From contig CASDPB010000115.1 in NCBI GenBank assembly GCA_949282305.1, forward strand, positions 1-36,532: 36,532 nucleotides of DNA, written 5' to 3'. Source of the DNA: an uncultured Lentisphaeria bacterium. Lineage in GTDB: Bacteria > Verrucomicrobiota > Lentisphaeria > Victivallales > UBA1829. The position numbers were made by a program, and so were the translations under genes. Under the pieces are notes generated by a model. That model did not search any database, was not told where the DNA came from, and saw nothing but the letters and a program-made list of their open reading frames with translations. Position 1 is the first letter of the stretch; each line of letters begins with the position of its first letter. Of the stretch, positions 20,824-31,090 are shown piece by piece.

Positions 20824-20907
20824 TGGTGCTCGAGGGGAGACTCGAACTCCCACGGATCGCTCCACTAGCACCTCAAGCTAGCGCGTCTGCCATTCCGCCA
20901 CCCGAGC
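20824..20907 (-). tRNA. trnL: tRNA-Leu (anticodon GAG)
   Basis: An 84-nt class II tRNA with a long variable arm and encoded CCA. The acceptor stem is GCTCGGG with CTCGAGC (one G-U), the anticodon arm CTAGC-TTGAGGT-GCTAG gives GAG, and the T-loop is GTTCGAG. It reads CUC/CUU codons. It has its own promoter just upstream. Confidence 0.97.
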
Positions 20908-20998: not shown

Positions 20999-21700
20999 TC
21001 ATTTTCTTCCGTTTTCAGCACATATCACTTTCATCCAGACAGCGGGAAACATCCACTCCATCCGCCCCCGATCCTTCCGAAAATTCCATTCAACCCCTCT
21101 TTCCGCGCCGGCAATCGGCACCAGCGACACAAACTCCCCTTCACAGAAAAACCTGCACACATCAAGTTTATCCGCTCCGTTCATCCTCAGCACGGCAAAT
21201 TCCCCATTTCTCACACGCTCATCCGCAATGCAGAGCAGAATTGTTCCCGGCGGATAAAATGAGCCGGCGCAGCATTCCAGCCTTACGGCAAAATGCTTTT
21301 TCCCCGCATCACAAACAAACGCTGCATTCCCGACTGCAAATTTCGCCGTGAACGCCTCCACCGTTTCCACCGCCGCATCATACAGCATCATGTCCCCTTC
21401 CCTGATGACCGGCACAGAAACCAGGCGTTTCTCAGCAAACACACCATTCAAACAGTCCGAATACTTTTCCCGGACCATATTCAGCTCCATCGCCGGCAGA
21501 TTCCTCACCAGATACGGCTCAATCTCGGGATACACGCGTCCGCGCCACAGATCGCTGCTGATGCTTCTCGTTTTCCCGTTCAGCCAGAACAAAACAGTAC
21601 TGTGCGCCACTCCAATCCGCCTGCTGAATGCAAGCAGACCGCCTTTTTTCTCCACAGCCTCAGCCAACGACCTGCGAATCATACCATCAATCAAACGCAT
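20999..21700 (-). CDS. HTH regulator with possible S24/LexA-like C-terminal domain
   Basis: Predicted cytoplasmic transcription regulator of 233 residues; family name uncertain. Residues about 21-45 look like a Cro/CI-type helix-turn-helix (LLAFSRRIGVAHSTVLFWLNGK). The C-terminal half resembles the LexA/CI fold: SFYPPGTILL stands where S-M-x-P-x-x-x-x-G-D-x-V-L-V is usual, then RNGEFAVLRMNGADKLDVCRFF. Ser, and a Lys in the second strand, could be the catalytic pair, but spacing and flanking residues are poor, so it may be a non-cleaving sensor. GGAGAG lies 6 bases before the ATG. It points away from the zinc-ribbon gene at 22072 across an AT-rich spacer. Confidence 0.75.
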   Translation of the reverse strand: MRLIDGMIRRSLAEAVEKKGGLLAFSRRIGVAHSTVLFWLNGKTRSISSDLWRGRVYPEIEPYLVRNLPAMELNMVREKYSDCLNGVFAEKRLVSVPVIREGDMMLYDAAVETVEAFTAKFAVGNAAFVCDAGKKHFAVRLECCAGSFYPPGTILLCIADERVRNGEFAVLRMNGADKLDVCRFFCEGEFVSLVPIAGAERGVEWNFRKDRGRMEWMFPAVWMKVICAENGRK

Positions 21701-22071
21701 AACATCTCTCCGGAAATTTTTCTTCCACTGTCACCTTTGTCAATATACAATAGCAATAAACATTATTTTTACAAGGCTTCCAATATTTTTTATTTTTATT
21801 TTATTTCAATATTTGATTTTGTTTGTAATGCAAATAAAATACACGTTTATAACAAACAGACGGAAAGAGCCCTCTTATTTCAGCACAAATTCAGCGTCAC
21901 ATCAAAAGCAGACATAAAACAACATTTCATATTCCCATAGACCATGTAAAAACATAGAGATAAATAAAATTAAACAAATAAACACGCAATAAACAATCTA
22001 AGAGCCATGTTTTTTACATTTTTTATTTGACGCTGGAATACTAATAACACAAAACAAGAAAGGAACTGATT
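21701..22071. promoter_or_regulatory. AT-rich divergent regulatory spacer with two matching palindromes
   Basis: These 371 bases separate two divergent DNA-binding protein genes and carry no gene that I can support. The spacer is much richer in A and T than its surroundings. Two palindromes share the same arms: ATGT-AAAA-ACAT at 21944-21955 and ATGT-TTTTT-ACAT at 22007-22019, each preceded by CC. A leftward promoter candidate is TTGTAA with TATTGT 16 bp on, in 21735-21775. A rightward TTGACG lies near 22028 but lacks a clear -10 partner. The palindromes could be operators for one of the flanking regulators. Confidence 0.4.
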
Positions 22072-22557
22072 ATGTTCGGTTGTCACAATTGCGGAAAGAA
22101 AATCAAAAAGAATACCCTCTACGCACACTCTCCCTGCGCCACATGCAGGACAGAGCAAAATCCAATGCCGCAGTCCCAGTACCGGGATGATCCGGCGAAC
22201 TTCCCGACGCTTCAGGTGATGCATCCGGCTTACACGGACGACGATGAAGTCTCTGTTGAATTCAAAATCAAGGAGAGACTTTTCCGCTCCCTCGCCCAGA
22301 CAATCCGGGTACTGACCGAAATGAAGGAAAAACATCCGGAAACGTATAAATTCATAGAGGCGAAAATGTACAATCCTCTTCTTACCTATACGGAACTTGC
22401 GGACATGTTCTCATGCCGGAAGCAGAATGTGCTGTATCATCTGAAGAAAGCCATCATTCTTTGTCCGGAACTTCAGAACACATTGCTGATTGACACCCGT
22501 TTTTCCGGCGGACATTATGCACTCAGAAGACCGGTCATGACAACCAGAAATTCATAG
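22072..22557 (+). CDS. Zinc-ribbon plus helix-turn-helix protein of unknown function
   Basis: I do not recognise a named family. The 161-residue product starts with a compact zinc ribbon (Cys4, Cys7, Cys22, Cys25: CHNC...CATC), has a variable acidic middle, and then a helical region (FKIKERLFRSLAQTIRVLTEMKEKHPETYKFIEAKM). It ends with a helix-turn-helix, LLTYTELADMFSCRKQNVLYHLKKA (about 99-123), that resembles sigma-70 region 4 or a phage-type regulator. AAAGGAA lies before the ATG. The pairing with the divergent HTH gene at 20999 and their shared spacer suggest a small regulatory module, perhaps of phage or plasmid origin. A role in transcription is inference. Confidence 0.75.
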   Translation: MFGCHNCGKKIKKNTLYAHSPCATCRTEQNPMPQSQYRDDPANFPTLQVMHPAYTDDDEVSVEFKIKERLFRSLAQTIRVLTEMKEKHPETYKFIEAKMYNPLLTYTELADMFSCRKQNVLYHLKKAIILCPELQNTLLIDTRFSGGHYALRRPVMTTRNS

Positions 22558-22626: not shown

Positions 22627-23460
22627 CTATGCACGGATCTCCCGCGGGGAACGCCCCGTGGTTTCCGATATGACACGGGAAAAATAGGATGCCGAAGAAA
22701 AACCGCACATTCCGGCGATTTCCGCAACGGGAAGTGTCGTATTCCTGAGGTAATCCAGAGCGGCTTGAGTCCGGCGCCCGCTCAGATAGCCGGAAATGGA
22801 AGTGCCGTAAAGACGCGAAAAACTGCGGCTCAGGGAAACCCGGTTCACATGAAGCAGTTCAGAAAGGCGCTCTATATTCAGTTCCGGATCGGAGAAATCT
22901 TCATCAATCATCAGCCTGGCTTCTTCCGCGCATCCTTTCCGCCTCGCCGTCTTTTTCCCGCCGGAAACAGCCAGAGTCAAAATGCTGAATGCCAGAGAAA
23001 GCGCGGCAAGGCGCCGCTTCCGCTCCGGAAATGAAATTTCCAACTCCAGCTTGTTGAACAATGCACCGGGACACTCCCCGGCATAGCGGAGTCCCGGCTT
23101 GATTCCAAGCCCCCGGAACAGGGCATGAGCCTGTCTGCCGTCGATTGTCAGCCAGCGGTACTCGAACAGTTCTCCGGCGGGAAAAAAATAATGCTGCGAC
23201 CCCGGAGGATAATACCAGACATGCCCCGGCTTCAAAAGATACTGCTTCCGCTCCGACACAAAATATCCAGCCCCCTCCACACCCCAGAAAATTTCCCCGA
23301 AATGTGCTTTTTTCCATGAACCTTTATCAACCCGTGACAGGCGGAAATGACCGACGGAACGGACAAAGAAATCAAATTCGCTTTTCTGAAGGGGAGCAAA
23401 ACTATAATGTGAAAAAGTCTTCATGTCCGGAATCCAGTCATATTTCGTCTCTGGAATCAT
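22627..23460 (-). CDS. AraC family transcriptional regulator
   Basis: A 277-residue regulator of the AraC/XylS type. The N-terminal half is a cupin-like ligand-sensing domain (HFGEIFWGVEGAGYFVSERKQYLLKPGHVWYYPPG). The C-terminal 100 residues carry two helix-turn-helix motifs: LNIERLSELLHVNRVSLSRSFSRLYG, and VAEIAGMCGFSSASYFSRVISETTGRSPREIR with the classical signature. I start at the ATG at 23460. A TTG at 23478 keeps the frame open, but the stretch before 23460 contains a likely operator. It is divergent from the GH2 gene and most likely controls it in response to a sugar or uronide. Confidence 0.92.
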   Translation of the reverse strand: MIPETKYDWIPDMKTFSHYSFAPLQKSEFDFFVRSVGHFRLSRVDKGSWKKAHFGEIFWGVEGAGYFVSERKQYLLKPGHVWYYPPGSQHYFFPAGELFEYRWLTIDGRQAHALFRGLGIKPGLRYAGECPGALFNKLELEISFPERKRRLAALSLAFSILTLAVSGGKKTARRKGCAEEARLMIDEDFSDPELNIERLSELLHVNRVSLSRSFSRLYGTSISGYLSGRRTQAALDYLRNTTLPVAEIAGMCGFSSASYFSRVISETTGRSPREIRA

Positions 23461-23463
23461 GCC

Positions 23464-23491
23464 GTTACAAAATTCCAATATAATGTTACAA
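23464..23491. promoter_or_regulatory. Direct repeats GTTACAA, likely AraC-type operator half-sites
   Basis: GTTACAAAATT at 23464 and GTTACAATTTT at 23485 (9 of 11 identical) are direct repeats exactly 21 bp apart, two helical turns. The second ends 9 bases before the -35 box of the GH2 promoter. AraC proteins bind direct half-sites with this spacing next to the -35 box. The binding protein is inferred from the adjacent regulator gene. Confidence 0.6.
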
Positions 23492-23499
23492 TTTTATTA

Positions 23500-23527
23500 T
23501 TGCTCTTTCCAATTTGCTGATTATAAT
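23500..23527 (+). promoter_or_regulatory. Promoter of the GH2 gene
   Basis: TTGCTC (23500-23505), a 16-bp spacer, and a perfect TATAAT (23522-23527). The weak -35 box fits an activator-dependent promoter. The expected start near 23534 gives a leader of about 57 bases. Confidence 0.65.
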
Positions 23528-23590
23528 GTCTGTATGGAATATAATACAACGAGACAAAAATGCAAATCAATAACAGAGGAAAGGCTTTTT

Positions 23591-25234
23591 ATGTTGAGGA
23601 CTCAGAAACTGAACGGGGAATGGGATTTTCATTTTACCGAAAAGAGACTGCATGAAGTTGTCCCGGCGGACATTTCCTGCGATGCCAAGATGTCGGTGCC
23701 GGGTTGTTTTGACGCAAAAGGCAGGTTCCGTTATCTCCGGGGAACCGGAATCTACCGCAGAACGCTTTCCTGCGGAGGCAAAATCCGGCTGGACGTCGGA
23801 GCGGTCGGACTGCGTGCCGATCTGTTCTGGGACAAGAAGAAAATCGGTTCCATGGAGAAGCCGTTTACCAAAGAATCGTTTGTCTTTGATTCGGGAGCTC
23901 AAGGAGTTCATGAGCTCGTCATCGCAACGGAAAACATCCTGGACAAAGACCCGTCGTCCATGTTCCACCCCTATTACGACTTCTACGCCTACGGGGGAAT
24001 CTACCGGGAAGTCGCAATCACGGAACTTCCCGAAGTTTATCTTGACTATGAGCGCATCACTCCCCTGGATCTGGACGAAGGGACTGTTGAAATTCATCTT
24101 GAACTCGGGGGAAAATGGGAATCTCTCAAAGAGATCGAACTGGGCTTCGACGGCGGGCAAATGGTTCCGGTGCCTGTTACCGGTGAAATTGTGCATACGA
24201 TACAGAAAGTGCCTTCGCACCGGCTGTGGTCCGTTGAAACGCCGAATCTGCACCATCTGTACATCAAGGCAGGAGAGGATGAAAAGGAGCTCCGCTTCGG
24301 AATGCGCAAGGTCGGCTTGAAAGACGGACGCATTACCCTGAACGGGAAACCGGTCAAACTGATCGGATTCAATCGTCACGACGCCCATCCGGATTACGGC
24401 TATGCGATTCCTGCGGAAATCACGCGCAACGATCTGGAAATGATCCGGGGCAAGGGGTATAATTTCATCCGGGGATGCCATTACACACAGTCGGAAACGA
24501 TGCTCTCTATCTGCGATGAACTTGGACTGCTGGTATGGGATGAGTCTCTCGGCTGGGGAAACAGCATTGCCAGCATGACCGATCCCGTCTTCTGCCGCTG
24601 CCAGCTGGAACAGACCCGGCAGATGGTCCGCAAAAGCATCAACCATCCGTGCATTATCCTGTGGGGATTCCTGAATGAAGCCTCCACGCATAAACCGGAA
24701 GCGGGGACGCTCGTGAACTCGCTGGTGCGGACGATCCGCGGCGAAGATCAGTCGCGCCTTGTCACATTTGCCTCGAATCAGATATTCAACGATCTCTGTC
24801 TGGACTCCCTTGATGTAATCTCGTTCAACACCTATCCCGGCTGGTACGAACAGCAGGACGCCCAGCAGTTTCCGCGTGAGGAAGTGCTTGATGCACTGCG
24901 CAGAATCATTCAATTTTCCTCGCAGGAAAAATATCGCGGCAAAGGAGTCATTCTAAGCGAAATCGGAGCCGCCGCACTGCCGGGCGACCACAGCGGACTG
25001 CGCTGGTCGGAAGAGTATCAGGCGGAACTTCTGAAAGCAGTGCTGACGGAAGTCTGGAACGAGGAACGGTGGTCCGGTGTGGCGTTCTGGCACTTTTCCG
25101 ACACGAAAACCTATTCCGACGGCAGGGCGATTCATCGTCCGCGCGGCTTCAACAACAAAGGTCTCGTGACGGAATACCGGGTTCCCAAACTTGCCTGGGA
25201 AGCACTGGCGCGGCATCTCGCTGAATTGAAATAA
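23591..25234 (+). CDS. Glycoside hydrolase family 2, beta-glucuronidase-like
   Basis: A 547-residue retaining glycosidase with the GH2 layout: N-terminal jelly-roll sugar-binding domain (1-145), immunoglobulin-like domain (about 150-240), and a TIM barrel from about 250. The acid/base is Glu363 in LWGFLNEAS and the nucleophile is Glu457 in LSEIGA. Two features point to uronides: FNTYPGWY (412-419), typical near beta-glucuronidase active sites, and an N-x-K motif (Asn521, Lys523 in FNNKG) that aligns with the carboxylate-binding Asn566/Lys568 of E. coli GusA. Beta-galacturonidase is an alternative. No signal peptide, so it acts in the cytoplasm on imported glycuronides. The ATG at 23591 has AGAGGAAAGG upstream. 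An AraC regulator is divergent. Confidence 0.9.
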   Translation: MLRTQKLNGEWDFHFTEKRLHEVVPADISCDAKMSVPGCFDAKGRFRYLRGTGIYRRTLSCGGKIRLDVGAVGLRADLFWDKKKIGSMEKPFTKESFVFDSGAQGVHELVIATENILDKDPSSMFHPYYDFYAYGGIYREVAITELPEVYLDYERITPLDLDEGTVEIHLELGGKWESLKEIELGFDGGQMVPVPVTGEIVHTIQKVPSHRLWSVETPNLHHLYIKAGEDEKELRFGMRKVGLKDGRITLNGKPVKLIGFNRHDAHPDYGYAIPAEITRNDLEMIRGKGYNFIRGCHYTQSETMLSICDELGLLVWDESLGWGNSIASMTDPVFCRCQLEQTRQMVRKSINHPCIILWGFLNEASTHKPEAGTLVNSLVRTIRGEDQSRLVTFASNQIFNDLCLDSLDVISFNTYPGWYEQQDAQQFPREEVLDALRRIIQFSSQEKYRGKGVILSEIGAAALPGDHSGLRWSEEYQAELLKAVLTEVWNEERWSGVAFWHFSDTKTYSDGRAIHRPRGFNNKGLVTEYRVPKLAWEALARHLAELK

Positions 25235-25278
25235 AGACAGCCTCCTTTTTCCTGCGTGGACGAGTGCGCGGGAAAAGG

Positions 25279-25304
25279 TCTGCCGCCCTCCGCGGCAGAA
25301 TTTT
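25279..25304 (+). terminator. Terminator after the GH2 gene
   Basis: An 8-bp stem (25279-25286 with 25292-25299, TCTGCCGC and its complement) with a 5-nt loop is followed by ATTTT. A second, larger hairpin, formed by CCTTTTTCC and GGAAAAGG around 25243-25278, precedes it, so the region is a double hairpin. Confidence 0.6.
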
Positions 25305-25334
25305 CCGCATACGGACAATTTTTTTCCTTTTGTC

Positions 25335-25362
25335 TTGAATTTTTCATCATTTGATGTATTTT
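25335..25362 (+). promoter_or_regulatory. Promoter and likely operator of the TetR-RND operon
   Basis: TTGAAT (25335-25340) and TATTTT (25357-25362) are 16 bp apart. A palindrome CATCA-TT-TGATG (25345-25356) fills the spacer between them, a classical place for a repressor of the TetR type to block RNA polymerase. An ATTCAA at 25373 also mirrors the -35 box. Confidence 0.5.
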
Positions 25363-25392
25363 AAAGTCTTTAATTCAACAAAAAGGAAAATT

Positions 25393-26055
25393 ATGAGTGT
25401 AAAAAAACAGTTGAACAAGAAGGCATTGGCTCTGCTGAATGCCGCAGGGCGTCTGTTTGCCGCCAAGGGCATGGATGCGGTAACGACCCGGGACATTGCG
25501 GCAGAAGCCGGCGGCAGTGATATTTCGCTGATAAAATATTACTTCGGAAACAAGGAAGGACTGATCCAGGCAGTCGCGGAATTCGCCACCGCCCCGCTTC
25601 AGGAATCTTCACTGGAGGACTATTATCAGAAGAACCGGGAACTGCTCGCAACCCGAGACGGACAGCGTGCATTTGTCAGCGGAATGGTGGCAGTCATCTT
25701 CAACCGTTTCCATGCGGAAATGCCGGAACCCTGGTGCCGGGGCTTCATCCTTCAAGTCCTGCAAAAACCGGGCAAGGACCCCATGAGACGCACCCTGATC
25801 GAACGGTATATGAAGCCGATGATCACCGTTTTCACAAAAATCTACCGGGAAATCACCGGAAATGATGATCTGGAGACGGCGTTCTGCTGGTATCTTTTCA
25901 TCACCGCCCAGTTTTTCGTTTATTCCGGCGATTCCGGTCTGATTGAACTCCTGCATCCGGACAAAAAGAACGAGACGGGATTCCCGCTGCGCCTGCAGTA
26001 TTTCTGCACGCAGCAGGTATTGAACGGCTTCCGGCTGCTTCAGGAACAGAGGTAA
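25393..26055 (+). CDS. TetR family transcriptional regulator
   Basis: A 220-residue TetR-type repressor. The helix-turn-helix is at about 31-60: TTRDIAAEAGGSDISLIKYYFGNKEG, with the conserved Y-x-F-x-x-K-E. The C-terminal region is a variable helical ligand-binding and dimerisation domain. The start at 25393 follows AAGGAA; an in-frame ATG 14 codons earlier has no ribosome site and overlaps the promoter region. It is the first gene of an operon with an RND adaptor 4 bp downstream and a pump after that, so it most likely represses the pump and itself. The inducer is unknown. Confidence 0.92.
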   Translation: MSVKKQLNKKALALLNAAGRLFAAKGMDAVTTRDIAAEAGGSDISLIKYYFGNKEGLIQAVAEFATAPLQESSLEDYYQKNRELLATRDGQRAFVSGMVAVIFNRFHAEMPEPWCRGFILQVLQKPGKDPMRRTLIERYMKPMITVFTKIYREITGNDDLETAFCWYLFITAQFFVYSGDSGLIELLHPDKKNETGFPLRLQYFCTQQVLNGFRLLQEQR

Positions 26056-26059
26056 AACA

Positions 26060-27205
26060 ATGAAAAAGAGGCTGTTCGGAATCGTCGCCGGAGTAATCGG
26101 AGCTGCCGCAGCGGTGCTCCTTGTCCTGATTTTCCACAAACCGTCGCCACCGCAGGAAGTTTCCCCGCCGACCCGGGCGGTGAAACTGTTCCGGGTCAGT
26201 TCGGCGAACACGTCCGGAACGATCGTCTATCCCGGACGTGTCAGGGCACGGACACATGCGGATTTATTTTTCCGTGTTTCCGGGCCGGTCATCGAAAACG
26301 ACCTTGAACTGGGCATGGCAGTGAAAAAAGGACACACCATCATGCGGATTGATCCGCGGGACTATGAGCGCGAAGTGGAGCGACTGACACATAACATTGT
26401 GATCCTGAAGTCCCAGCTCACCTACAAGGAACAGGAATACCGGCGCATGGAACGTCTGCTGAAAAGCAGCGCCGTCAGCAAGGCGGATTATGAACTGGCG
26501 CTGAGTTCGCGCGATGCCGCCATGGCAGAGATCAAGGCTCAGGAGACGGAACTCCGAATCGCAAAAGACAAACTGGCGGATACCTGTCTGGTCGCTCCGT
26601 TCGATGGCAGGATCACGGATCTGAAAATCGAAAAGTTTGAAATGGCAAAAGCCAATGAAATTGTGGTCTCACTGCAAAACCTTGAGACACTGGAAATCGT
26701 CGTCCACGTTCCGGAAGGAAATCTCCCGGAACTGCAGACACTCGGTTCCGGGGGTTTCTTCGGCAGAGAATTTCCGGTGACATTTCCCGGAAGACAGCTC
26801 CGGCATACCGCAACGCTGACGGAGTTCCGCCCGGTCACTTCTGCGGAAAACGGAACCTATGAACTGCGCTTCCGCATGACACAGCCGGAAAAATTCATGA
26901 TATTTCCCGGCATGACCGCCGAGGTGCAGAATCTGCCGGACCGCCGCAGCATTTCCTCGAAAAAACCGCAGGTGCCATTTTCCGCAGTCCTCCGGAAAAA
27001 CGGAAAGGATTTCGTGTGGGAATACATCCCGGAATCAAAACAGCTGGCACGGCGTGAAGTAAACGTGCTCCGCGTTCATGACAATTTTGCGGAAACAGAT
27101 TCACTTCCTGCGGGAACTCTGATCGTCGCGGCGGGCGGGACCTGGCTTTCAGAAACTCATCAGGTCACGATTCTGAATCCGGAGGTGCTCCGTGAGCTTG
27201 ATTGA
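26060..27205 (+). CDS. RND efflux periplasmic adaptor (membrane fusion protein)
   Basis: A 381-residue HlyD/AcrA-type adaptor that links an inner-membrane RND pump to an outer-membrane channel. An N-terminal membrane anchor (about 5-25, GIVAGVIGAAAAVLLVLIF) without a lipobox Cys is followed by a first lipoyl half (RVSGPVIENDLELGMAVKKGHTIMRIDPRDY). Then come a helical hairpin (about 108-175, with KSQLTYKEQEYRRMERLLKSS) and the second lipoyl half (TCLVAPFDGRITDLKI). Beta-barrel and membrane-proximal domains complete it. It starts 4 bp after the TetR stop and its end overlaps the pump gene by 14 bp. Confidence 0.93.
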   Translation: MKKRLFGIVAGVIGAAAAVLLVLIFHKPSPPQEVSPPTRAVKLFRVSSANTSGTIVYPGRVRARTHADLFFRVSGPVIENDLELGMAVKKGHTIMRIDPRDYEREVERLTHNIVILKSQLTYKEQEYRRMERLLKSSAVSKADYELALSSRDAAMAEIKAQETELRIAKDKLADTCLVAPFDGRITDLKIEKFEMAKANEIVVSLQNLETLEIVVHVPEGNLPELQTLGSGGFFGREFPVTFPGRQLRHTATLTEFRPVTSAENGTYELRFRMTQPEKFMIFPGMTAEVQNLPDRRSISSKKPQVPFSAVLRKNGKDFVWEYIPESKQLARREVNVLRVHDNFAETDSLPAGTLIVAAGGTWLSETHQVTILNPEVLRELD

Positions 27206-30200
27206 ATATGTGCTGTCGCGGAAAAGTTTCTTCCTGCTGCTGATGCTCCTGGTGACTGCCGGCGGGACGTTCTCCTATTTCCGGCTGGGACGTCTGGAGT
27301 ATCCGAACTTCACAATCAAAAAGGCGATGGTCGTCACCAGTTATCCCGGAGCCACAGCACGCGAAGTGGAGGAAGAAGTCACGGACAAACTTGAGGAAGA
27401 GATCCAGAAGATGTCGCAGATCGACAACATCACCTCAATCAGCCGGGCGGGACTTTCCGTGATTTATGTGGAGATCCGTCCGGAATTCCGCACTTCGGAA
27501 ATGCCGCAGATCTGGGATGAACTGCGGCGCAAGGTGCATGACATCACGCCCAAACTGCCCGAGGGAACCGGGGAACCGAAAGTGCGCGACGATTTCGGTG
27601 ATGTCTACGGTATCTATCTTGCCCTGACCGGCGCCGGTTACTCGACGGACGAACTGAAAGACTATGCAGACCTGCTGAAAAAGGAGCTGCTCCGTGTTCC
27701 CAACGTCGCAAAAGTCGATTTCTGGGGTGTCCAGGAAAAAGTGATCTACGTGGAATTCAACCGTGCCAGACTTGCCACGCTCGGAATTTCCCATGAAAAA
27801 CTGTTCGCGACATTAAACCGGAACAACCAAATCACCGAATCCGGACAGCTGAAGATTGATGGCGAATATCCCGTTTTCCGGGTGACGGGCACCATTGACG
27901 GGATCGAGGCGATCCGCAATCTGCAAGTGGCGGATTCCCAGGGGAAACTGATCCGCCTCGGCGAAATTGCAGACGTCAGCCGCGGACACAAAGAACCGCA
28001 GGAACGCATCATGCGCAGAAACGGCGTCGAGGCCATCGGCATCGGTATTTCCATCGTAGACGGCGACAATGTGGTCGATCTCGGAAAAGCCGTCCGGAAA
28101 CTGCTCAAGGACACCGAATCAAGCCGTCCGGCAGGCATGGAGCTTTCCACCATCAACTTTCAGGCGGATGACGTGCAGAATTCCCTGAACGAATTCCTTG
28201 TCAATCTGGTGGAATCCGTCATCATCGTGATCGCGATTCTCCTGCTGACCATGGGATGGCGTTCCGGCGTGATTATCGGAATCACACTCCTGCTGATTAT
28301 CCTCGGCACCTTCATCGGCATGGATCTGATGCAGATTGACATGCAGCTGATTTCGCTCGGCGCCCTGATTATCGCACTGGGAATGCTTGTGGACAACGCA
28401 ATCGTCATTGTCGATTGTTTTCTGGTCAAAACCGCACGCGGGGTACCGCCCGAACAGGCCGCCGTCCAGTCGGTGAAAGAAACGCAATGGCCGCTGCTCG
28501 GAGCAACCATCGTGGCAATCCTCGCCTTTCTCGCGATCGGTTTCAATCCCGGAAATATCGGCGACTTCTGCAGTTCTCTCTTTTTCGTAATCATGATTTC
28601 GCTCTTCCTGAGCTGGGTCATGGCTCTGATTTTCACGCCGCTGCTCTGCTTATGGTTCCTGCCTGTGAACACGAAGCAGCCGGCACCGGAAGAGGAAATT
28701 TATTCGGGAAAAATCTACAACGCCTACCGATGGCTTTTGAATCTGACGCTCCGCTACAGGAAAACGACGATCGTGCTGCTGACGGTGTCTCTGTGCGCCG
28801 CCGCCTTCGCATCGCAGTTCGTGCCGAAAACCTTTTTCCCCTACTCCACAAGAAAGCAGTTCTATATTGATTACTGGGGAAATCCGGCGAATCATATTCA
28901 GAAGACGTATCAGGATGTCATGGAGATTGCCAAGTATCTGCGGACACTGGACGGCGTCGTCTCAACAACGGAAATTATCGGTGAAGGCACGCTGCGCTTT
29001 GTCCTGACTTACGATTACAACAGCCAGTCGCCGGACTATGGGCAGATTCTGATTGAAGTTGACGACCACCGCCGGATCGACAAGCTCATTCCGCAGATTG
29101 AAAAATATCTTGCGGAAAATTATCCGGATGCGGATACCATGATTCAGCGCTATGCCGAGGGGACGCCGATCCCGTTCAAAATCGAGGCACGTTTCCTGGG
29201 ACCCGATCCGAAGATTCTGCGCAGTCTCGCGGAAGAGGCAAAGACAATCCTGCGGCAGCATCCCAACACACGTTATATCCGGGATGACTGGCGCGATCCG
29301 ATAAAAAACATCCGCCTGGAATATTCGGATGTGAAGGCTCGTCCGACCGGCATCTCGCGGGAAGACTTTTCCAATGCGGTTCAGTGGAACTTCAACGGCG
29401 TGAAAACCGGGGTGTTCCGGGAAAAAAATGAGCTGATCCCGATCATTTCCCGGGCAACTTCCGCGGAACGGCAGAATATCCGCGATCTCGCAGGAGTCCA
29501 GGTTTACAGCTCCGTGACGGGAAAATATTATCCCGCCGGACAAGTCTGTGAGGAAAGCACGGTTTCATGGGAACCCCCGCAAATCCGTCACCGGGACCGG
29601 ATTCCCGCCATTACGGTTCAGTGTTCCCAGAAAAGCGGCACGGCAACGGCTCTGCAGAAAGAACTGGAAGAAAAATTCCAGAAGATCAAGCTGCCGCCGT
29701 TGTACAAACTGGAATGGGGAGGAGAAAAATACCAGCAGCAGATTGCAAAGGCAGGTCTGAAAAAACTCTTTCCGGTCAGCCTGATTCTGATGTTTCTGGT
29801 CGTTGCGATGCTTTTCCGCACCTTGCGGGAGTCTTTCATCGCGTTTGCGGTTCTGCCTTTCGCACTTACGGGCGTCGTCGGAGGGCTTCTGCTGCTTCGT
29901 CTGCCATTCGGTTTTATGGCAATCCTCGGATTTCTCGGACTTTCCGGAATGATGCTGAAAAATGCGATCGTGCTGCTGGATCAGATCAATCTGGAACTGA
30001 AACAGGGAACTGCGCCCCGCGACGCCGTCATCAATGCCTCGGTCAGCCGTCTGCGCCCGGTCACGATGGCGGCGGGAACGACCATTCTCGGAGTCGCCCC
30101 TCTGCTGGGACACGTTTTCTTCGATTCGATGGCGGCAACCATCATGTTCGGGCTGATCGGCGCCACTCTGCTGACCTTGCTCGTCGTTCCGGTTCTCTAT

Positions 30201-30251
30201 GCCATGTTCTTCCGTCTGCCGAACACAGCCGGGGAAAAAACTGCCGGATAA
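27192..30251 (+). CDS. RND family efflux transporter permease
   Basis: A 1019-residue inner-membrane proton-driven exporter of the AcrB type. It has the usual two-fold repeat: TM1 near residues 12-28, a large periplasmic loop, TM2-6, a second set with TM7 at about 530, and the C-terminal helices. TM4 reads GALIIALGMLVDNAIVIVD. The first Asp of the AcrB pair (Asp407) is kept, and the second (Asp408) is Asn, a variant I believe is common in some RND subfamilies. The GTG start follows GGAGGTG and lies inside the end of the adaptor gene. No outer-membrane channel gene is in the window, so the complex must borrow one. The substrate is not readable. Confidence 0.93.
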   Translation: MSLIEYVLSRKSFFLLLMLLVTAGGTFSYFRLGRLEYPNFTIKKAMVVTSYPGATAREVEEEVTDKLEEEIQKMSQIDNITSISRAGLSVIYVEIRPEFRTSEMPQIWDELRRKVHDITPKLPEGTGEPKVRDDFGDVYGIYLALTGAGYSTDELKDYADLLKKELLRVPNVAKVDFWGVQEKVIYVEFNRARLATLGISHEKLFATLNRNNQITESGQLKIDGEYPVFRVTGTIDGIEAIRNLQVADSQGKLIRLGEIADVSRGHKEPQERIMRRNGVEAIGIGISIVDGDNVVDLGKAVRKLLKDTESSRPAGMELSTINFQADDVQNSLNEFLVNLVESVIIVIAILLLTMGWRSGVIIGITLLLIILGTFIGMDLMQIDMQLISLGALIIALGMLVDNAIVIVDCFLVKTARGVPPEQAAVQSVKETQWPLLGATIVAILAFLAIGFNPGNIGDFCSSLFFVIMISLFLSWVMALIFTPLLCLWFLPVNTKQPAPEEEIYSGKIYNAYRWLLNLTLRYRKTTIVLLTVSLCAAAFASQFVPKTFFPYSTRKQFYIDYWGNPANHIQKTYQDVMEIAKYLRTLDGVVSTTEIIGEGTLRFVLTYDYNSQSPDYGQILIEVDDHRRIDKLIPQIEKYLAENYPDADTMIQRYAEGTPIPFKIEARFLGPDPKILRSLAEEAKTILRQHPNTRYIRDDWRDPIKNIRLEYSDVKARPTGISREDFSNAVQWNFNGVKTGVFREKNELIPIISRATSAERQNIRDLAGVQVYSSVTGKYYPAGQVCEESTVSWEPPQIRHRDRIPAITVQCSQKSGTATALQKELEEKFQKIKLPPLYKLEWGGEKYQQQIAKAGLKKLFPVSLILMFLVVAMLFRTLRESFIAFAVLPFALTGVVGGLLLLRLPFGFMAILGFLGLSGMMLKNAIVLLDQINLELKQGTAPRDAVINASVSRLRPVTMAAGTTILGVAPLLGHVFFDSMAATIMFGLIGATLLTLLVVPVLYAMFFRLPNTAGEKTAG

Positions 30252-30283
30252 GGACATTCCGGTCCCCTGCCCCGAACCCGAAA

Positions 30284-30327
30284 GCTGTCTGCCCGGCTCC
30301 GTCAGTGCCGGAAACCGGGCAGACAGC
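30284..30327 (+). terminator. Hairpin after the RND operon
   Basis: A perfect 13-bp inverted repeat (30284-30296 with 30315-30327, GCTGTCTGCCCGG) with an 18-nt loop lies 32 bases after the pump stop codon. On the plus strand a T-run (ATTTTT) follows only after 9 bases. On the minus strand it directly follows the stop of the small remnant at 30330. It probably serves both directions. Confidence 0.55.
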
Positions 30328-30329
30328 CG

Positions 30330-30527
30330 TTACAGATTTTTCAGCTCGTCTTCCCGCAGATGAAAGACTGCCGGCGCCATTCCCGGCTGCCGGATTTCCA
30401 CACAGCCGTCTTTCACGGCGGCGACACGCAGATGTTTTCCGTGCATTCCCAGTAAGGAGGCGATCTTCGCCATCGCCATACGCTTTCCGAACATGGTCGC
30501 GGTCAGGCGAGGATCTGGCGAAAACAC
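30330..30527 (-). pseudogene. C-terminal remnant of an unidentified leftward gene
   Basis: A 65-codon leftward frame with host-like codon use (mostly G or C in third positions) ending in PAVFHLREDELKNL. It has no ribosome site at its GTG or internal ATG. The frame stays open upstream to 30582, past the point where rightward AraC coding sequence begins. I read it as the surviving tail of a longer gene that lost its head by deletion; I cannot name the family. A genuine small protein is possible but less likely. The hairpin at 30284-30327 would be its terminator. Confidence 0.4.
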
Positions 30528-31090
30528 CCGGATACTGTCATTTCTTCGAGACAGACCCGCAACTTTCCGGTGAATACCGGTTCAAAGACCGCATTACGCT
30601 GGCACCGGACACCATGCTCAAAATCAACGAACTGTCAATCCAGATGCACCATGAACAGCAGACAAGAAAAACAGGCTGGCAGTTCATGATGAAAATGCTG
30701 TTCATGCAGATACTCTGCATCATCTGCCGCGCATTCGAGCAGCACTCCTCACAGTCCAATGAGGCACAGGAAATCACCCAGATCATACGGTATCTGAACG
30801 ATCATTATCCACAGAAACTCACATTGGAGAAACTCGCCGTAAGATTCGGCAAGTCAGTCCCTACCCTGAGCCGTCTCTTTCAGGCGACCCTGAACCGGAG
30901 CCCCATCGCCTACCTGATTCATCTCCGTCTGGAAAAAGCGGCGGCGGAACTGCGCTCCACCTCCGATTCCGTCACGGACATCGCCCATCAATGCGGATTT
31001 CTCGACAGCAACTATTTTTCCAAGATGTTTACGAAACAGTTCGGCGTCTCCCCCCGCGATTACCGCAAACAGGGCAGAACAGAACAATAG
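30521..31090 (+). pseudogene. 5'-truncated AraC family regulator
   Basis: From about 30521 the frame reads like the second half of an AraC-type regulator. GYCHFFETDPQLSGEYRF is the end of a cupin domain, followed by a helical linker (GWQFMMKMLFMQILCIICRAFEQ). Then come a complete two-HTH domain, TLEKLAVRFGKSVPTLSRLFQ, and DIAHQCGFLDSNYFSKMFTKQFGVSPRDYRK. The N-terminal 80-100 residues of the sensor domain are missing, and upstream sequence in this frame is Arg/Ser-rich nonsense. The first ATG (30614) lacks a Shine-Dalgarno, and would give a 158-residue product. Probably a pseudogene, although an HTH-only protein could be made. Confidence 0.75.

Follow-up and report, generated by a model that had tools for sequence, protein, structure and literature searches.

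A divergent regulator pair and scattered phage genes with a common upstream signal in Lentisphaeria: a candidate switch for a possible GTA-like gene set

Introduction

Phages offer two familiar arrangements of small regulators. In Lambda, CI and Cro are encoded by divergent HTH genes over a common operator region, and small HTH proteins such as ArpU/RinA and T4 gp55 turn on phage late promoters.

The closest described systems are GTAs. In Caulobacter crescentus, RogA represses the promoter of the activators GafY and GafZ, which act on about 18 separate promoters, their own operon among them (PMC11150451). GafA of Rhodobacter capsulatus is a direct activator of the GTA and lysis promoters and shows strong positive autoregulation (PMC6363796), and the FpGTA of Faecalibacterium consists of two operons and is podovirus-like according to its authors (PMC12946183).

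Here we analyse two regulator genes, A and B, on a 36,532-nt contig of an uncultured Lentisphaeria bacterium (the window), together with the remainder of its genome (G000) and 60 relatives. In known GTAs the structural genes sit together in one cluster or a few, whereas the phage genes described here lie at seven or more loci under one signal.

Results

Two divergent regulators of uncertain family

The ORFs of A and B diverge from 371 nt with 72% AT (Table 1), and the neighbours of A are tRNA-Leu(gag), tRNA-Thr and EF-Tu. An earlier note on this DNA had described two DNA-binding proteins of uncertain family, diverging over 371 AT-rich bases close to a tRNA-Leu, and all of this was borne out. 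For A, the Pfam matches YdaS_toxin (E = 0.0042) and Peptidase_S24 (E = 0.26) are both below the cutoff. The Pfam match of B, HTH_20 (E = 0.0027), is likewise sub-threshold, and no family above the cutoff was found for B in Pfam, PHROGs or NCBIfam.

S24/LexA-type self-cleaving repressors carry a Ser/Lys catalytic pair. The residues that we take to form it are missing from the S24-like domain of the window A, from the other A of the genus and from A of G020; GDSM and VVVKK/VVIKK are kept in A of G041 and G048, both f7 genomes. In B, the CxxC...CxxC segment (Cys4, 7, 22 and 25) makes the protein a putative Zn binder. Structure prediction gave good confidence for the half holding the predicted HTH (residues about 59–138), and the N-terminal half, ribbon segment included, was poorly modelled (pLDDT 45–64). 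Residues 55–134 match region 4 of sigmaE (Z 8.1), WhiG (8.0) and AlgU (7.9), scores with which other HTH folds tie. Foldseek E values for the sigma-region-4 matches are not below 0.3, and the search with B returned nothing at E ≤ 0.001. The HTH of B is thus predicted to be sigma-region-4-like on fold matches that are middling, at Z 8.1 and below. Close relatives of B that have names belong to Victivallales/Lentisphaeria MAGs, and G000 is itself a MAG of Victivallales type. With dS near saturation, dN/dS is 0.07–0.09 for B and 0.12–0.19 for A. In G001, a single MAG, the B gene (L048 5406-5879) has a TGA at the conserved Cys22 codon. The gene may be broken there or misassembled, or the codon may be something more unusual, such as selenocysteine.

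Table 1. Positions of the features discussed (window coordinates unless a locus is named).
Feature	Position	Strand	Description
tRNA-Leu(gag)	20824-20907	-	
Regulator A	20999..21700	-	233 aa; YdaS-like HTH and S24-like C-terminal domain; candidate repressor
Block 1, candidate promoter of A	21747..21775	-	-35 TTGTAA, about 16 nt, -10 TATTGT/TATGTT; holds an ATAAAC half-site
ATAAAC half-site 1	21756..21761		count from motif scan, position read off sequence
Block 2, candidate sigma70-type promoter of B	21813..21852	+	TTGATT-N16-TAAAAT, then CGTTTATAA
GTTTAT half-site 2	21845..21850		position read off sequence
Palindrome 1 of the earlier note	21944-21955		not conserved
ATAAAC half-site 3	21978..21983		position read off sequence
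ATAAAC half-site 4	21989..21994		position read off sequence
Palindrome 2 of the earlier note	22007-22019		not conserved
Block 3, shared signal TTTTTATTTGACGCT	22020..22034	+	15 nt; also before scattered phage genes
Regulator B	22072..22557	+	161 aa; CxxC...CxxC N-terminus and predicted sigma-region-4-like HTH; candidate activator
TAG-bearing sequences of G006	L056 9672-10151, L021, L235; prfB G006:C8:4407-5441		
Hairpin-element loci of genus g9	L133, L135, L136, L137, L155-L158, L162, L163		

Operator and promoter candidates between A and B

The earlier note had singled out a pair of palindromes with ATGT and ACAT arms, 63 nt apart. They are present, but their meaning did not hold up. In 2000 dinucleotide shuffles of the 371 nt, a pair of 4-nt inverted repeats with the same arms and a 4–5 nt spacer arose in 50%; the exact ATGT/ACAT arm pair arose in 0.05%, the arm having been picked after it was seen. 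ATGT-N4/5-ACAT was found in none of five related A–B intergenic regions (0/5). Being unconserved and expected by chance, the palindromes were rejected as operators, and their lack of conservation is an outcome that the note had itself said would tell against its reading. ATAAAC/GTTTAT half-sites occur four times in each of six A–B intergenic regions (shuffle mean 0.5, P = 0.001) and are better operator candidates than the palindromes.

Aligning the related intergenic regions revealed three conserved blocks. Blocks 1 and 2 were read by eye as candidate promoters; block 3 lies 46 nt, measured from TTTGACGC, ahead of the start codon of B. Neither the half-sites nor block 3 figured in the earlier note.

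Conservation of the pair

Orthologs of B were found in 11 of the 60 relatives. Counting G000 and a distant member in G023 (E = 7e-5), B is present in 13 of the 61 genomes. Homologs of A are widespread, with 40 of 61 genomes having one and G000 having three. A adjoins B in 6 of the 11 relatives with a B ortholog, two of these six in another family, a count that takes in G041, where two genes separate A and B. The divergent unit is kept in seven genomes (G000, G001, G002, G003, G020 and G048, plus G041), and the pair sits at this locus in two genera; the homologous pairs that the earlier note had proposed to look for elsewhere do recur. The remaining five of the 12 genomes with B (G004, G005, G006, G010, G011) have no adjoining A. 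The order in G020 is tRNA-Leu, A, B and then orthologs of the window genes from 31160 on, to aspS. In the window, a further stretch separates B from these genes. It covers 22627-31090, between B and pyrF-aspS, and holds AraC, glycosidase, TetR, RND efflux and AraC genes, names that we assigned from sequence.

Elsewhere B has other neighbours. In G011 (L055 4957-6521) and G006 (L056 7894-9513) it is followed by two genes of about 285 and 240 aa, for which a family search found no known family. A relative of the ~285-aa gene follows B in G004 (L057 3726-4541), and further relatives occur in several copies in G041. In G006 (genus g4), B holds two in-frame TAG codons, and an A paralog, the capsid gene and prfB hold one each. 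RF1 (prfA) was sought in this MAG (78% complete) and not found; four relatives have one, in one of them just under the cutoff. The G006 lineage may read TAG as an amino acid.

Phage genes among housekeeping genes

PHROGs named TerL (2e-39), TerS (8e-9), portal (2e-65) and capsid (9e-65), and Pfam named Terminase_3, Portal_Mu (4e-75), Mu-like_Pro (2e-53), Mu-like_gpT (7e-61) and Phage_Mu_Gp36 (2e-17). The head and packaging set named in this way comprises TerS, TerL, portal, protease, capsid and gp36. For the tail-side genes neither database gave an HMM name; we ourselves chose the names tail tube, chaperone, tail terminator (Z), decoration protein and MuF-like by size, gene order and resemblance. 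We identified no gene for a tape measure, a baseplate or lysis.

The nearby host genes differ from locus to locus in the window's genome: ttcA for TerL and Z, glnS for the portal gene, cysK for capsid and gp36, rpmA/obgE for the tail genes, an epimerase gene for TerS and EF-Tu for B. G020 has a portal–capsid operon between phosphomannomutase and murD and a tube-like gene after leuS, and TerL of G011 follows a PP2C gene. The portal–capsid operon is in one piece in G002 and G020; in the window's genome the two genes fall on separate contigs, each of which breaks off within the operon. Judged by sequence resemblance, one and the same neighbour precedes TerS in G000, G003 and G020. The phage genes stand on separate contigs among housekeeping genes, which is not the layout of an excisable prophage, and no replication or integration genes were seen beside the loci examined. 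A contiguous Mu-like prophage is present on contig C127 of the window's genome (L276), with portal and capsid 31–36% identical to our queries; it holds two TTTGACGC, neither before a gene.

Of the 61 genomes, 16 have a TerL ortholog (57–81% identity), among them all 12 in which B lies next to host genes, and 13 have a portal ortholog. Four genomes (G013, G017, G018, G019; 72–92% complete) have TerL with no B found. Ortholog identity of TerL and portal falls with host kinship, and dN/dS is 0.06–0.07 for TerL, 0.07–0.09 for capsid and 0.12–0.13 for portal, with dS near saturation. The phage genes thus appear to have been inherited vertically over the long term under purifying selection.

A common signal upstream of B and the phage genes

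The signal was reached through Z (146 aa), a neighbour of B in G001, which has a homolog on contig C25 of the window's genome beside a lone TerL; TTTTTGTTTGACGCT stands upstream of both. A signal private to B had seemed to follow from a search with TTTATTTGACGC that gave one copy. This was ruled out, the pattern being too strict because position 4 varies (A, C, G, T).

In the window's genome the strict form TTNTTTGACGCT has 10 sites and the reversed pattern 1, and the corresponding counts are 11 vs 1 in G020, 9 vs 1 in G011, 7 vs 1 in G010 and 13 vs 1 in G018; G001, G004 and G005 have few strict sites (2, 2 and 1). In the window's genome the genes downstream are B, TerL, TerS, portal, Z, a tail-like gene and, at two contig ends, a second Z-like gene; two of the 10 sites (C17, C34) have neither a phage gene nor B downstream. 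Seven exact copies of TTTTNTTTGACGCT were found in the same genome, six of them preceding B, TerL, portal, TerS, the tail-terminator-like Z and a tail gene, and the seventh (C17) with no recognised gene after it. Fifteen sites have one mismatch, and four of these are further copies before such genes (C55, C19, C29, C119); the reversed control at up to one mismatch gave 13. The genes with the signal in front in G020 are B, TerS, portal, two Z-like genes, the tube-like gene and a 464-aa gene, and TerL has a looser form.

When TerL orthologs were collected by homology alone, TTTGACGC lay 34–57 nt ahead of the start codon in 13 of 16 genomes, and it was upstream of the portal gene in 11 of 13. TerL is without the motif in G005 and G019, and in G048 it has the signal only through its operon. 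There the signal stands before an operon TerS–TerL and before an operon protease–decoration–capsid–X–portal, which accounts for the missing copies.

Among 303 genes predicted by our own ORF caller at 30 loci, TTTGACGC was near the start of 19, and 18 of these are phage genes or B. The 13 loci that were not chosen by motif contribute 151 genes and 6 hits, 5 of them phage genes or B; the 17 chosen by motif or phage-gene homology contribute 152 genes and 13 hits, all phage genes. The reversed motif gave 0 and 1 hits in the two sets. In the Fisher comparison of 13/16 with 1/284, the 284 include some phage genes without the motif. Across genomes, motif sites outnumber control sites 78 to 23 in the 12 genomes with B, and the counts are 39 vs 49 in 20 genomes lacking both B and a TerL ortholog. 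The motif excess tracks B (Fisher P = 5e-6, genomes with B against those with neither gene, leaving aside the four genomes with TerL and no B, which have 19 sites vs 8 control). Taken together, we are very confident that a set of phage genes scattered over at least seven loci has a common signal.

The aligned signal reads T5-N-TTTGACGC-T-Y, and an A/G-rich stretch that includes the ribosome-binding site comes after it. The alignment omits one of 52 listed genes, which has no TTTGACG within 160 nt of the chosen start, and columns T0–C7 are fixed by selection, since the rows are motif-bearing genes or their orthologs. The signal lies 34–58 nt ahead of most start codons, within the expected leader, and no conserved -10 or -35 box was found around it. 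We consider it unlikely to be the -35 box of a sigma70 promoter: there is no conserved -10, and in genes with the signal 34–39 nt ahead of the start codon, transcription beginning at normal spacing would start at or beyond the ribosome-binding site. With no conserved -35/-10 pair, we therefore take the signal to be a specialised promoter or operator near the transcription start.

In genus g9 a repeated element comes after the signal; it is roughly 125 nt long, forms two strong hairpins and was seen at ten sites in two genomes, mostly directly after the T-rich ends of host genes. A search of Rfam gave no named match for this element, which could be a regulated small RNA or a small signal-spreading mobile element. 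L135 3588-3633 (+) matches the Acido-Lenti-1 RNA family at 33.3 bits, below the cutoff of 37.

Relatives in viruses

Relatives of B with 31–36% identity are found in four viral contigs, three of them 164–179 kb, and on this resemblance B's family also occurs in large phages. A search of B against INPHARED phages gave no hit. TerL has relatives in two viral contigs (43–45% identity). TTTGACGC was not found near the B homologs of the viral contigs, nor near these TerL relatives. Searches with portal, TerS and A gave no related viral contig, and on these results we rejected the idea of free phages carrying the same gene set. The earlier note had proposed looking for the pair in prophages; in viral contigs, relatives were found for B and none for A. 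In G023 the distant B-like protein is encoded just upstream of phage terminase genes.

Discussion

Our favoured reading, which we consider probable, makes A and B the control switch of a domesticated, GTA-like phage whose genes are spread across at least seven places in the chromosome. Of what marks a GTA, the genes themselves display chromosomal head and packaging genes, purifying selection and a non-prophage layout; the tail set consists of tube-like, chaperone-like and tail-terminator-like genes by size and order only. Selection on the phage genes and the signal both span two families. In this reading, which goes beyond the genes by inference, A would repress, B would read the signal, and the products would form particles carrying host DNA. 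For GTA-type packaging of host DNA in particular, our confidence is somewhat lower, and we only lean towards it.

In the off state, A would sit on the half-sites and hold back its own promoter and the sigma70-type promoter of B; by its position over the half-sites it is the natural candidate for a repressor of B. Once A is lifted, B would be made and would recognise TTTTTNTTTGACGCT ahead of the terminase, portal/head and tail operons and of its own gene. By acting on its own signal, B would lock on the expression of the whole phage-gene set. Positive feedback by B is the simplest reading because B, itself under the signal, is the sole regulator found there. Of the earlier note's two suggestions, the domesticated remnant of a mobile element is supported by the occurrence of B's family in large phages and by the signal common to B and the scattered phage genes. 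A two-regulator switch is plausible given the conserved divergent pair, now with half-sites, but the palindromes are not conserved, B is not Cro-like and no relative of A was found in viral contigs.

The same gene and motif evidence would fit an old prophage that was broken by rearrangement, its genes kept for a role other than DNA transfer (immunity, or a lytic or protein-delivery particle) and A and B still serving as the switch. This is unlikely in our view. That no tape measure or lysis gene was recognised agrees with it, but both terminase subunits, portal, protease and capsid are all under strong purifying selection, which favours a DNA-packing head over a tail-only device.

We give slightly less credence to the idea that the signal is read by another factor, such as a host sigma or a third regulator, or acts in the 5′ leader RNA, with B a mere target and A and B having another job. 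The position of the signal in the expected leader, without conserved -10/-35 boxes, speaks for this, and four TerL-bearing genomes have no detectable B. Those genomes are incomplete, however, B is the sole regulator found under the signal, and the signal excess tracks B.

An ordinary CI/Cro-type immunity switch, left over from a prophage at the tRNA-Leu and unrelated to the other genes, would suit divergent HTH genes near a tRNA and the S24-like domain of A, in which the f7 genomes keep GDSM and VKK intact, but it is highly improbable given that EF-Tu, tRNAs and host genes flank the pair with no other prophage gene or integrase seen at the window locus, that the pair stays in place in two genera and that the common signal ties B to distant loci.

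Returning to the switch of a GTA-like phage, it is quite possible, and we put it forward tentatively, that this is the first GTA-like system of Lentisphaeria and of an exploded type, with head, packaging and tail operons at separate addresses forming one regulon, run by B, a sigma-like zinc protein of phage origin, through the single-box promoter TTTTTNTTTGACGCT, with self-activation and a host-type repressor. Our search of the literature on GTAs with Lentisphaerae, Verrucomicrobia, dispersed loci and regulons found no such system described. If the reading is true, a captured phage can dissolve fully into a host regulon and still be kept, and a GTA-like system is added to a phylum where that search found none. 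The signal can be used for finding the remaining genes of the set.

Compared with Lambda CI/Cro, B is not Cro-like, there is no intact prophage and the targets lie elsewhere in the chromosome. The distant B-like protein upstream of terminase genes in G023 recalls phage late-gene activators; it differs from ArpU/RinA and T4 gp55 by its CxxC...CxxC segment, and none of their HMMs matched B above the cutoff.

Among the GTAs, FpGTA resembles the scattered set in that terminase, portal and capsid are kept across a gut genus in separate operons, but it has two operons only, and the available part of the report describes no common signal (PMC12946183). RcGTA has one main structural cluster, its GafA is controlled by CtrA and GtaR, and a common signal of the TTTGACGC type is not described in the accessible portion of that paper (PMC6363796). 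The main structural genes of the Caulobacter GTA also form one cluster, and its activators work with IHF and antitermination (PMC11150451). That the B gene itself has the signal in front is what positive feedback like that reported for GafA and GafY would predict. The likeness to RogA with GafY/GafZ and to GafA is one of regulatory logic: the proposed arrangement would set a repressor over an activator that acts on its own promoter.
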